From Aliiroseovarius halocynthiae (GTDB lineage Bacteria > Pseudomonadota > Alphaproteobacteria > Rhodobacterales > Rhodobacteraceae), in the NCBI RefSeq assembly GCF_007004645.1, contig NZ_ML660019.1, forward strand, positions 950,437-1,014,436: a stretch of DNA of 64,000 nt, written 5' to 3'. A program made the position numbers and the translations under genes. The notes under the pieces were generated by a model. That model searched no databases and was not told the origin of the DNA. It saw only the letters and a list, made by a program, of their open reading frames with translations. This document shows, piece after piece, positions 39,750 through 60,513 of this stretch. How positions within the stretch are numbered: position 1 is the stretch's first letter; every line of letters begins with the position of its first letter.

Positions 39750-40445
39750 ATGACAAACGACATTTCTGCGTTGTTCCAAAAACTAACCATACAAGTTCGA
39801 GAAGCGCTCGACCCATTAGGGTATATGGACGGGGCGAATGGTGCGTTTAAGACAGGCCACGTTCCCGGTATCGCTCCTCTTGCTTATCTTGCCACTTTTT
39901 ATGCTGGTTTGGACGACAATGGGATTCAAGCGGCTGAGGCGGAGTGTGACCGTTTCATTCCCGATCTTTACCGTGCACTGTTGAGGCACACGAATGGGCT
40001 GCGTTTAGGTAAGCTGAGTTTGCATGGAACGACGTTCCAGTCGGCCTACACATCGGGTCCGGGAATTGGGCAACCGATTAGCCTCGTCTATCAAAACGTC
40101 TATGAACGCCCTAACTATATTCCAAATGGGCATTTGGGGATTGGGGCGATGAACGGCGAGTGGCATTCGCAGGGTCACTTCTACCTCGCCTCTACTGGCG
40201 AGGTGGAAATGTACCATCGCGACGCGAATCTATTAGGCGCGCGATGGGCGTCGATTGAAGAGTTTCTTCAGAGCGAGATCCCACGCCAGCTGTCTTTATA
40301 TGATGCTGAAGGACGGATTAAGTCGGATGTTAAGCAGCTTCCGGGGGATACAGAAACTTGGGAAGCCATCGCGGAAGCAAAGAAAGGTGAACAGGCTCGA
40401 GCGTCTGGTCTTCGCGGCAAGATTGCCGACATGTTCAGGCGGTAG
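39750..40445 (+). CDS. SMI1/KNR4 (SUKH)-like protein
   Basis: 231 residues. The central part (ALLRHTNGLRLGKLSLHG, SLVYQNVYERP, FYLASTGEVEMYHRD, then ARWASIEEFLQSEI) follows the SUKH pattern of a small alpha/beta domain ending in a helix that names a surface residue. SUKH proteins often give immunity to nuclease toxins, but there is no toxin gene next to it. C-terminal 40 residues are charged and unassigned. AT-richer than the flanking genes. I am moderately sure of the family only. Confidence 0.55.
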   Translation: MTNDISALFQKLTIQVREALDPLGYMDGANGAFKTGHVPGIAPLAYLATFYAGLDDNGIQAAEAECDRFIPDLYRALLRHTNGLRLGKLSLHGTTFQSAYTSGPGIGQPISLVYQNVYERPNYIPNGHLGIGAMNGEWHSQGHFYLASTGEVEMYHRDANLLGARWASIEEFLQSEIPRQLSLYDAEGRIKSDVKQLPGDTETWEAIAEAKKGEQARASGLRGKIADMFRR

Positions 40446-40514
40446 GTTTCAAGCAGAGAAACAAAACCCGAATACTTCCATAACAGAATTCGTAGTGCTA
40501 AAAGCCTTTTGGGA

Positions 40515-40634
40515 CACGGCGATGGCGTCGCTGCGGGGCATCCTCCCCGGTTCCTTAACCACGCTCCTGTACGCCGGGACTTTCAATCGGGAGATTGAAG
40601 GCCCCGCCTTGCCTCCCACCAGACAGGAGGCGTC
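40515..40634 (+). ncRNA. Structured 5' leader of the amidinotransferase gene, candidate riboswitch
   Basis: Read as RNA, P1 GCGGGGC (40533-40539) pairs with GCCCCGC (40601-40607) and closes a three-way junction. P2 is CCCGG (40546-40550)/CCGGG (40574-40578); P3 pairs 40581-40588 with 40593-40600, capped by a GGGA (GNRA) tetraloop. A fourth hairpin, GCCTCC (40611-40616)/GGAGGC (40626-40631), hides the Shine-Dalgarno AGGAGG, 5 bases before the ATG at 40636. An alternative fold pairs GGGG (40535-40538) with CCCC (40545-40548) and GGTT with AACC. A small hairpin GCGA/TCGC precedes P1. No match to a riboswitch class I know. No T tract, so control of translation is likely. Confidence 0.6.
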
Positions 40635-40635
40635 C

Positions 40636-41757
40636 ATGGCTTGGTCACCGGACAAAACTGAAGTCAAAAGCTGGAATGAATGGGACACGCTGCGCCATGT
40701 GATCGTGGGCCGTGCCGACGACTGTCACATCCCGCCGGAAGAACCTGCACTGGATGCGAAAGTGCCGGAAGACAGCGATATGCGGGGCCAGTGGGGCCGT
40801 CGCCCGCAGGAAACCATCGATCGTGCGAACGAGCTTTTGGACAACTTCGCCGATCAGCTGCGCAAGCGCAGTGTTCGTGTGGATCGTCCCGTCTCGATCG
40901 ACCATTCGCAGCCCGTAGCCACCCCCGATTTCCACACAGACAGCCAGTTCGGCTGTATGCCGCCGCGTGACGTGTTGTTGACCGTCGGACACGAGATGCT
41001 GGAAGCGACCATGTCTTATCGCTGTCGTTGGTTCGAGTATCTGAATTATCGCCCGCTGTTGAAGCAATATTGGGAAGAAGACCCGAATTTCCGTCACGAG
41101 GCGGCTCCCAAGCCGCGACTGACGGACGCCGATTACAATCCGGATTACCTGTCCGAGAAGATCGGCGACGCCCAGCGTCTGGAATGGGCCGCCGAGAAGT
41201 TTTTTGTCACCACCGAGGAAGAGCCTCTGTTCGATGCTGCAGATGTGCTGCGTTTCGGCAAGGATCTGGTCGTGCAACACGGGTTCACCACGAACCTGAA
41301 GGGCATCGAATGGCTGCGTCGTCACTTCCCCGATCACCGCGTGCACACGGTGAATTTTCCGGGCGATCCGTATCCGATCCACATTGACGCGACTTTTACA
41401 CCGCTGCGTCCGGGCCTGATCCTGAACAATCCGCAGCGCCGTTTGCCAGAAGAGCAGCGCGGCATGTTTGAAAAGAACGGGTGGGAGATCGTGGACGCCG
41501 CTCAACCTGCGCACAACACGCCGCCGCCGCTGTGCTATTCGTCGACTTGGCTGTCGATGAACGTTCTGGTTCTGGACCCGAAAACTGTCTGCGTCGAGAA
41601 ATCCGAGGTCTATCAGGCCGAGCAGATGGACGAGCTGGGCATGGAAGTGGTCGAAGTCGAGCTGCGCGACGCCTATGCGTTTGGTGGCGGTCTGCACTGC
41701 TGCACGGCGGACGTGTATCGCGACGGGGATTGCGAGGATTACTTCCCGAAGCAGTAA
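40636..41757 (+). CDS. Glycine amidinotransferase family protein (AGAT-like)
   Basis: 373 residues, guanidino-group-modifying (GME) fold of five propeller repeats, close in layout to arginine:glycine amidinotransferase. Seen: DAADVLRFGKDL (Asp triad member), KGIEWLRRHFPDHRVH, PYPIHIDATFTPL (catalytic His), SMNVLVLDPKTVCVEK and GGGLHCCTADVYRDG with nucleophile Cys355; animal AGAT has HCW where this has HCC. The transfer of the amidino group from arginine to glycine or another amine is likely; acceptor unknown. AGGAGG is 5 bases before the ATG and inside a hairpin. Followed by a strong terminator, so monocistronic. Confidence 0.88.
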   Translation: MAWSPDKTEVKSWNEWDTLRHVIVGRADDCHIPPEEPALDAKVPEDSDMRGQWGRRPQETIDRANELLDNFADQLRKRSVRVDRPVSIDHSQPVATPDFHTDSQFGCMPPRDVLLTVGHEMLEATMSYRCRWFEYLNYRPLLKQYWEEDPNFRHEAAPKPRLTDADYNPDYLSEKIGDAQRLEWAAEKFFVTTEEEPLFDAADVLRFGKDLVVQHGFTTNLKGIEWLRRHFPDHRVHTVNFPGDPYPIHIDATFTPLRPGLILNNPQRRLPEEQRGMFEKNGWEIVDAAQPAHNTPPPLCYSSTWLSMNVLVLDPKTVCVEKSEVYQAEQMDELGMEVVEVELRDAYAFGGGLHCCTADVYRDGDCEDYFPKQ

Positions 41758-59019: not shown

Positions 59020-59831
59020 TTTGTCCCCCGGTTGTCGGGCCAGTCATGGGTTTCGTCCGCCCCGTCGCGCGCCCAGCGATAGAGCGCATCATAGAAGGGC
59101 ATCGCCGCGTCCAGCTGTTCGGTGTCGCTTTTATATTGCCGCGACAACCCGACCGAAAGCGCCAGCAGCCCTGCGGCCTCGGGCACCTCGGCAAGCCGGT
59201 TGGTGTCCGCCGCGCGCACGACATCCGCCAGACGGGACAGGGCGGGGGTAGCCAGCGCAAACTCCTCGATCATCGTGTCAAAGCTGCATCGTGGGCCGCG
59301 ATGGGACCAAAACGTGTCCTCGATATCGAACGGGGTGGCGTCATAGCGCGCGGCCACATCCACGACCTGCGCCGGCGGGACAAACAGGAACCGCGCGTCC
59401 GGGTCGACAAAGCGACGGATCAGCCACGGGCAGGCGATGCGGTCGATCTTGGGGCGGTGACGGGTGACCCAAAGCGTGGCGCCGCCCTGTTTGGCTGGGA
59501 TCGAGGCCGCAGGGATGCGCGGCAGTTTGGCGTCGCGCCATCCATAGTTGCCGCCTGCCAAAACCTCGGCTCGCAATCCGGCGTCTCGCAATATCGCGGC
59601 CGCTCCGTGGCTTAGCTTCCCGCCTTTCTGGCAAATCGTGACAACGGGGCGGTCCCCCAAGGAAGGCAGCAAGGTGCGGATATCAGTGTGTGGATGGCGG
59701 ACCGCGCCGGGGACCAGAAACGGGTCGGCGTCAAAGTTCTCGTCGATCGAGACATCTATTAAAACCGGCGCGTCGGGCGTGCCGATCAAGCGCATCAGCT
59801 GGGCGGGGGATATTTCTGCAAAAGCAGGCAT
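59016..59831 (-). CDS. chrB: Chromate resistance protein ChrB-like with rhodanese domain
   Basis: 271 residues: N-terminal rhodanese-like domain (VLIDVSIDEN, active Cys in VVTICQKGGKLSHGA) fused to a ChrB C-terminal domain (WVTRHRPKIDRIACPWLIRRFVD, FDIEDTFWSHRGPRCSFDTM). It is translated just before chrA with a 4-base overlap. Acts in chromate sensing or detoxification; regulatory and enzymatic roles have been proposed for this family. Confidence 0.9.
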   Translation of the reverse strand: MPAFAEISPAQLMRLIGTPDAPVLIDVSIDENFDADPFLVPGAVRHPHTDIRTLLPSLGDRPVVTICQKGGKLSHGAAAILRDAGLRAEVLAGGNYGWRDAKLPRIPAASIPAKQGGATLWVTRHRPKIDRIACPWLIRRFVDPDARFLFVPPAQVVDVAARYDATPFDIEDTFWSHRGPRCSFDTMIEEFALATPALSRLADVVRAADTNRLAEVPEAAGLLALSVGLSRQYKSDTEQLDAAMPFYDALYRWARDGADETHDWPDNRGTK

Positions 59832-59976
59832 GGCTGGGCATCCTTCAAACGGGCTTGGTGATGGATGCGAACCTTGAGCCTTGGCCTCACGGGGTGGTCA
59901 CGCGAACCCCATAGGCAGTTTGTGCCAGACCCAAGGGGCAGGGGTCAAGGTCTTGAGGTGCCTAAGAAATGGAAGT

Positions 59977-60290
59977 GCAGGTTTCTGTTGCCAGGTACCT
60001 GCGAACCCCGCCCAAGGCGGCTAGGCCAAGGGACTTAGTTTCGGCAACCCGAACTGCTTACGCAGCCAGAGCCATAGCCGGAGCTTTGTTGTCATTTGCA
60101 ACTAGCTTAAATGAACCGATAACGGTGGTATCTCACCGAAACAAAGCTAACCCCTTTAGACGTCCGTCGATCCTATTTCGTCCCCATGATCCCCAAATGA
60201 AGGATGTTTGGTGGAGACGCCGGGTACCGCCCCCGGGTCCGATCCGCTTATTACGAGCGCGTTTATGTCCATAGTCCCCGAGGGGACAGG
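59977..60290 (-). ncRNA. ssrA: tmRNA (ssrA), circularly permuted two-piece form
   Basis: On the minus strand the 3' acceptor piece (up to about 60290, ending in CCA at 60209) comes first, then a spacer, then the coding piece from GGGGACG (60185-60179). GGGGACG pairs with CGTCTCC to rebuild the acceptor stem, and the T arm is CCGGG-GGCGGTA-CCCGG. The tag frame 60099-60061 encodes ANDNKAPAMALAA followed by TAA. A hairpin GCAGGT/ACCTGC closes near 59977-60002. This split arrangement is typical of alphaproteobacteria. Rescues stalled ribosomes. Exact ends are estimated. Confidence 0.93.
60061..60099 (-). other. tmRNA tag reading frame
   Basis: Thirteen codons, ANDNKAPAMALAA, with the resume codon GCA at 60099 and stop TAA at 60060-60058. 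The last residues ALAA are a ClpX signal. Confidence 0.9.
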
Positions 60291-60513
60291 CAACATATAA
60301 ATATGGTGGATGTGCTTTGAAAGGGGAAAACGGAAAGTTTCGTGCCCTATGGTCTGATTTTTGCAATGGAAACTAGAATGGGCGAAGTCGCCCAAACCAA
60401 CATTAATCGTCCAACAAATGCTGATGGAGGGTCTGCTAAGAAGTGTTCATAGCAGTGTCTTTCCAAAGTTAGCTAAGTCTCTGAGGTTGGTGAAACGTTG
60501 ATGCAAGCCGCTA

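Follow-up and report, generated by a model that had tools for sequence, protein, structure and literature searches.

The stretch of DNA analysed here, 64,000 nucleotides of Aliiroseovarius halocynthiae (the window), harbors a gene for an amidinotransferase of the L-arginine:glycine amidinotransferase (AGAT) family, preceded by a structured leader. A gene for a SMI1/KNR4 (SUKH) domain protein (39750-40445) lies immediately upstream of this leader. The Shine-Dalgarno sequence (SD), AGGAGG, was located at 40625-40630, separated by five bases from the ATG (40636). The following features were recognised:

40475..40503, + strand: putative promoter, with CTTCC at 40475-40479 and a -10-like TGCTAAAA at 40496-40503, adjoining P1 upstream
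40511..40515, + strand: 5' strand of helix P1, GGGAC pairing with GUUCC at 40550-40554, obtained by constrained folding of locus L087, that of the window
40517..40533, + strand: hairpin P2, stem 40517-40521 / 40529-40533, loop AUGGCGU 40522-40528
40525..40528, + strand: GCGU of the P2 loop, proposed kissing partner of ACGC 40571-40574 in the P4 loop
40534..40549, + strand: variable hairpin P3, 40534-40538 / 40545-40549
40550..40554, + strand: 3' strand of P1, on the same basis as its 5' strand
40565..40579, + strand: hairpin P4, UCCUG 40565-40569 / CGGGA 40575-40579, loop NACGC 40570-40574
40576..40604, + strand: hairpin P5, 40580-40588 / 40593-40601 with a GGGA loop, from sequence and alignment
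40589..40617, + strand: alternative hairpin, hypothetical, by which the SD would be released, 40589-40593 / 40613-40617 and 40598-40602 / 40606-40610
40611..40631, + strand: SD-blocking hairpin, GCCUCC 40611-40616 / GGAGGC 40626-40631
40636..41757, + strand: presumed regulated gene, AGAT-family amidinotransferase, 373 aa

Elsewhere in the window, the minus strand carried a chrB-a cis-regulatory RNA recognised by Rfam (59829-59915, 53.7 bits), adjoining a tmRNA (59974-60326).

An earlier note on this leader had drawn a three-way junction closed by an outer stem (GCGGGGC 40533-40539 / GCCCCGC 40601-40607). The letters of this stem do pair, but it is not a conserved element: at least six contiguous pairs were possible in only seven out of 40 AGAT leaders, three of which were the window's own locus and its near relatives L004 and L005. 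One of its inner hairpins (GGUU/AACC, 40549-40560) was present in the window and kept in one leader out of 40, that of the window itself, while the other, the GGGA-loop hairpin of GNRA type at 40580-40601, was found in 38 of the 40. A three-way junction does exist further 5', where it is formed by P1, P2 and P3 (40511-40554) and supported by the relatives; outside the GGGA-loop and SD hairpins, the structure drawn earlier is mostly incorrect, and the position of P1 moves the start of the feature to about 40511. The six-bp hairpin over AGGAGG withstood comparison, displaying compensatory changes and, over 40 leaders, a swap z of 4.0 that was equalled by none of 300 swaps. A competing fold had also been foreseen and was encountered as alternative states in constrained folds, in which an extension of P5 (40576-40578 / 40602-40604) vies with P4 for the same GGG. 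The fold energy of the leader (-56.7 kcal/mol) was only a little lower than that of shuffled sequences (-50.8 +/- 3.8; z -1.57; equalled by 13 out of 200 shuffles) and is thus no proof of structure.

Upstream of the junction, 40 AGAT leaders aligned on P2 displayed conservation of 0.6 to 1.0 bit each at positions -47 to -42 (TTCCCC) and -22/-21 (TA). These boxes are kept at a fixed spacing before P1, by which the RNA would start near P1, and they are regarded here as a putative promoter; a scan of 40380-40660 with the sigma-70 consensus returned no promoter match.

Relatives of the leader were gathered through the gene and through the RNA. The first set comprised 80 AGAT loci, the best 80 of 369 relatives of the 373-aa protein, which were chosen via AGAT. 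Conservation upstream of orthologues, which the earlier note had proposed to verify, applied to part of this set: the core preceded the gene directly in 35 of the 80 loci, in addition to the window, which is far more than chance would give, and was absent from 45. The second set relied on covariance models of the whole leader (R1) and of the P1-P4 part alone (R2); unlike the AGAT-derived loci, R1 matches were picked without regard to the gene. The shared core consisted of CGATGGCGTCG, a variable spacer and TCCTGNACGCCGGG, followed in the AGAT class by a near-invariant P5 and the SD hairpin; weaker R1 matches shared this core with the AGAT type and differed in the SD part. A genomic repeat was discarded as an explanation, the window's own genome containing one full match and two others 16 bases long.

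Among 394 genomes of the family, taken to be the Rhodobacteraceae on account of the named AGAT loci, model R1 matched 237 at E 0.01 and R2 matched 243 at E 1e-4. In the class, R2 was found in 31 out of 385 genomes at E 0.01, 12 of which reached at least 33 bits, and in the phylum in 12 out of 299 genomes at E 0.001. Strong matches outside the family belonged to families f41, f105, f107, f109 and f156. One genome of the window's genus (G373) displayed a match of neither model. Family matches were counted per genome, and downstream genes were read at the listed places only; those of the phylum-level loci L194-L196 were left out of this reading.

Covariation backed the fold as a whole, P1 of AGAT leaders being its weaker part. 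In an alignment of 100 model-aligned matches, which was fitted to the structure, 82.8% of cells were paired against 70.7% in shuffled controls, two-sided changes were displayed at 15 out of 20 pairs, and the score was 0.257 against at most 0.106 for slid structures. An unfitted MAFFT alignment, scored over 24 pairs including the kiss, gave 0.126 against at most 0.080 for slid and 0.075 for shuffled structures; two-sided changes occurred at 13 of the 24 pairs, a figure equalled by 24 out of 500 shuffles. The covariance model that the earlier note had called for could thus be built from relatives' leaders, with covariation above that of slid and shuffled structures. As the leader sequences are related to each other, p values and shuffles given here are optimistic. 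Repeats were removed before swap, fold and energy counts, and nine matches for which no start codon was found (L108, L112, L117, L122, L124, L143, L153, L161 and L167) are absent from the leader counts.

The individual helices contributed unequally. P2 was paired in 98.5% of cells, with two-sided changes at three out of four pairs (alignment A5), and in a weak match before a creatinase gene (G063) the P2 stem and the loop-closing pairs changed together. P3 displayed two-sided changes at all six pairs and was paired in 79.6% (fitted) and 57.1% (unfitted) of cells; by eye, part of the creatinase leaders seemed to have a shortened P3 or none. A half-split swap of P3 failed, swaps being equal in 200 out of 200 cases for AGAT, 23 out of 200 for creatinase and 113 out of 200 for all leaders, which was put down to the crude split. 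P1 was in register in 54.6% (fitted) and 42.6% (unfitted) of cells and, as its position wanders, it was also tested alignment-free. Swapping the upstream piece raised the energy in 70 creatinase leaders (z -6.0, so low a value being reached by none of 60 swaps) and in 39 AGAT leaders (z -2.5, reached by one of 60). The best-helix swap of P1 gave z 3.8 for all 109 leaders and z 3.9 for creatinase leaders (0/200 each); for AGAT leaders alone it gave z 1.3, with 20 out of 200 swaps as good. At least four P1 pairs were formed in 33 out of 39 AGAT leaders; after swapping, the number of such leaders averaged 27.8 and reached 36 at most.

P4 was paired in 92.7% of cells and its stem varied little, compensatory changes within it being encountered in L002, L149 and G089. 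A sixth, outer pair was present in creatinase leaders (G-C in 42, A-U in 14 and G-U in five out of 71) and missing in 38 out of 40 AGAT leaders, forming in the other two. The GCGU of the P2 loop and the ACGC of the P4 loop were complementary in 71 to 72 of 72 sequences; because these columns hardly vary, covariation is uninformative on this contact, and the loop-loop kiss is proposed from complementarity.

The genes behind the element were of two kinds. In the loci gathered up to that stage, all 115 pattern matches preceded either a creatinase (66) or an AGAT gene (49), or 65 and 40 out of 105 once repeats were removed. All 14 further strong model matches that were read were located upstream of creatinase; among the next 40 listed places, creatinase was found downstream in 39 and AGAT in one, two of these places overlapping the earlier set (the AGAT one being L091, and G370 being L040). 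Wherever the gene following a strong match was read, it encoded an amidinotransferase or a creatinase, and the element is thus a conserved structured RNA in the 5' leaders of functionally related genes. One creatinase (L269 of G022), which the creatinase search of family genomes had passed over, was split over two frames right behind the element; creatinase matches with one internal TGA were those of G083, G105 and G115. Twenty weak class-wide places remained below 33 bits; the eight that were read (L166-L173) displayed short unrelated frames downstream, and on this basis all 20 were taken as chance.

The association was also approached from the creatinase side in 120 family genomes, per genome and not per place, three R2 genomes (G080, G107 and G108) being left out of this check. 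At the thresholds used, creatinase was detected at E 1e-120 in 82 and AGAT in 20 of the 120 genomes. A full-length creatinase at least 65% identical to the query was present in 74 genomes, of which 69 displayed an R2 match somewhere. Three of the other five (G063, G079 and G089) harbored a weaker upstream copy of 25 to 35 bits when filters were switched off; with the same setting, G014 and G029 (two out of 74) displayed no element upstream of their high-identity creatinase. No R2 match was found in any of the eight genomes containing only distant or fragmentary creatinases. Second creatinases of 61-63% identity were encountered in two genomes that each also have a close one (G010:C2:568068-569246 and G106:C6:22684-23868). 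The window's own genome contained a second, divergent copy of the element (33.6 bits, G000:C8:30868-30961, recorded as L174 and L273), located before a creatinase gene behind which the genes of a PotA-type ABC importer lie.

The protein encoded in the window resembled human AGAT (phmmer E 2e-83; Pfam ADI E 2e-5) and aligned with it at the His of HIDATF and the Cys of GGGLHC, which we take to be the catalytic residues. Residues N300 and M302 (human numbering and role as we assume them) were Y and I in the window protein (YPIHIDATF), so that an amidino acceptor other than glycine may be used; with glycine, which is uncertain as acceptor, guanidinoacetate would be formed. Creatinases were compared with the protein of G152 as reference, which was closely similar to solved creatine amidinohydrolases (E 9.5e-165 and 4.2e-163) and 76% identical to the creatinase of the window's own genome. 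Judged by this similarity, the downstream creatinases resemble creatine amidinohydrolases. Their neighbourhoods included a Pfam creatininase gene (near the G294 creatinase), a gene resembling glycine betaine monooxygenase reductase, below the family cut-off (near the G433 creatinase), and an aldehyde dehydrogenase cluster recurring in eight out of 20 neighbourhoods (L180, L184, L186, L187, L188, L189, L192 and L193), the L180 member being a succinate-semialdehyde dehydrogenase.

That one RNA precedes the genes of two unrelated enzymes of guanidino-acid metabolism speaks for a riboswitch sensing creatine or a related compound such as guanidinoacetate. The layout of a translational riboswitch, noticed earlier in the window alone, agrees with the covariation, with the lack of an Rfam family in the loci scanned and with the presence of the same RNA before creatinase. 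We consider it probable that the leader is a cis-acting translational riboswitch of a class outside Rfam, whose P1-P4 aptamer binds a guanidino acid, creatine being the likeliest. Creatine was placed before guanidinoacetate or another guanidino acid because creatinase is the commoner target and matches solved creatine amidinohydrolases. It had been missing from the ligands suggested in the earlier note; of those, a guanidino compound was retained, with guanidinoacetate as a plausible candidate, and the case for glycine, arginine or free guanidine seems weaker, creatinase being the commoner target. The narrower claim, a first natural creatine riboswitch built of a three-way junction and a loop-loop contact, distributed over this family and a few other families of the class and equipped with two platforms, is tentative and attracts slightly more doubt than belief.

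The same riboswitch class might instead respond to guanidinoacetate, or to another guanidino acid made by this amidinotransferase. Guanidinoacetate is the product or reverse substrate of AGAT and possibly a substrate of creatinase, so that both enzymes plausibly handle it. In favour of this, AGAT and creatinase genes were convergent at short distance in L022, L026 and L040, at other loci both elements lay within a few kb of each other, and the acceptor side of the AGAT-like protein is unlike that of the human enzyme. The far higher incidence of creatinase than of AGAT in the family genomes (82 against 20) and the resemblance of the creatinases to true creatine amidinohydrolases argue the other way, and this ligand is considered unlikely, at a level that still deserves attention.

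An RNA-binding regulator that recognises P2 and P4 and controls both genes would fit the long near-invariant stretches of the element. No regulator was recognised among the annotated clusters recurring in at least three out of 20 creatinase neighbourhoods, though it may lie elsewhere; autoregulation by the gene products is unlikely since the two enzymes are unrelated, and a junction followed by a hairpin overlapping the SD block is a usual layout of metabolite switches. A protein-binding leader is consequently held to be improbable. Even less probability, very little indeed, is granted to a functional SD hairpin acting alone as an RNA thermometer or simple damping device, with the remainder of the leader a by-product of promoter or DNA sequence conservation: the SD was mostly paired in folds (mean 0.74 to 0.81), which speaks for it, but compensatory changes occurred in P1-P4, away from the SD, and it is the upstream element that both gene classes have in common, their SD parts being different. 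A coding explanation, in which the AUG of the P2 loop opens a conserved frame for a leader peptide or N-terminal extension, was rejected as next to impossible for the leaders as a set: in the window this frame does continue uninterrupted into the gene, but the distances from this AUG to the core were spread across all three phases (9/13/18 for 40 AGAT and 22/22/27 for 71 creatinase leaders), and an uninterrupted frame in phase with the gene occurred in five out of 40 AGAT and eight out of 71 creatinase leaders.

A possible switching route for the proposed guanidino-acid riboswitch was most apparent in creatinase leaders, where CGGGAC, the 3' strand of P4, continues into the SD-blocking strand. 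Short creatinase leaders read GGGACCUUUCU...AAGGAGGGUC, where GAC is the foot of P4 and, with the following bases, pairs with the SD side; a strand of the aptamer is thus shared with the SD-blocking stem, the two pairings being mutually exclusive. Alignment position 123 covaried both with its P4 partner (p 3e-8; 63 out of 71 leaders entering the table) and with the SD side (p 4e-5; 39 out of 71), these values being optimistic for related sequences. With P4 formed, the mean cost of opening the SD in 21 short creatinase leaders decreased from 8.7 to 6.0 kcal/mol; the drop exceeded 0.5 in 19 of them, and the cost rose in one. Shuffled controls displayed a mean change of 0.0, with 24% lower. For the 50 long creatinase leaders the cost decreased from 5.8 to 4.5 kcal/mol, being lower in 30 and higher in eight (shuffled control: change 0.2, lower in 23%). 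AGAT leaders displayed lower costs in 20 and higher costs in 17 out of 39. Unconstrained equilibrium folding by itself brought out little of this effect: with P4 forced, the SD opened by more than 0.2 in two out of 21 short creatinase, five out of 50 long creatinase and none of 39 AGAT leaders.

Pairing of GGG plus 9 nt in long creatinase leaders was above swaps when directed at the rest of the leader (0/300) and not above swaps when directed at the last 20 nt (80/300). At least five contiguous pairs (G-U allowed) between the loop side of P5 and the later leader were possible in 40 out of 42 leaders of AGAT type, including GGAAG/CUUCC in L096; this pairing is not independent, since complementarity to the SD is also required of that strand, and the alternative hairpin freeing the SD in AGAT-type leaders is hypothetical. 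L096 and L114 were creatinase leaders with an AGAT-type downstream part.

These elements can be assembled into a model. The aptamer would consist of the P1-P2-P3 junction and P4, possibly locked by the kiss between the P2 and P4 loops, and would sense a guanidino acid, most likely creatine and next guanidinoacetate. Binding would hold P4 in place; since P4 shares bases with the SD-blocking stem of creatinase leaders, the ligand should loosen the block there and turn translation on, by which a creatine-type substrate would induce its own breakdown by creatinase. In AGAT leaders P4 would compete with the GGG/CCC foot of P5, and the ON direction is proposed for creatinase only. Ligand binding, ligand identity and direction are all inferred in this model.

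Scans of the window leader and of further loci encountered no known Rfam family, in agreement with the earlier note, which did not recognise the fold as any class known to it. The whole window searched at the gathering threshold gave no match at the leader, and relaxing the threshold to E 10 over 40480-40640 yielded three chance-level matches only. Guanidine-I to IV riboswitches are small switches tied to guanidino chemistry, some of them translational, which control exporters and carboxylases; none matched at the gathering threshold in the loci scanned or was among the weak matches listed for two leaders, and their downstream genes are unlike the AGAT and creatinase genes found here. The fluoride riboswitch (crcB) is comparable in that the loop of its GGCGAUG-type hairpin pairs with a strand lying 3' of another hairpin. 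Its model gave no match in two leaders at E up to 10 or 5, and the present element differs by an extra closing helix (P1), its own hairpin P4 and unrelated genes. The glycine riboswitch is comparable in responding to an amino-acid-type ligand and switching catabolic genes on; its Rfam model did not match the leaders scanned.

Creatine-use genes are reported to be regulated in Corynebacterium by AmtR, a TetR-family protein of nitrogen control (PMC8864220), a protein regulator in contrast to the RNA leader considered here. In another report, Rhodobacterales motifs were described at cco and cysS genes (PMC8632094). The main text of PMC11109978 made no mention of creatin or amidinotransferase, and PMC7266159 did not mention creatine. 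The published literature searched contained no description of this element; survey supplements and most subscription papers were outside this search, so that an earlier sighting is possible. On comparative sequence grounds, the element is presented as a candidate riboswitch class whose fold and probable ligand were undescribed in that literature.

If this is true, it would be a riboswitch class with a new type of ligand, present in 243 out of 394 genomes of the family including marine roseobacters, and it would offer a clean case of one aptamer joined to two different expression platforms as well as a creatine sensor made of RNA. These bacteria would then be sensing free creatine, or a guanidino acid related to it, directly as a nutrient, and gene control could be tied in a testable way to dissolved organic nitrogen.
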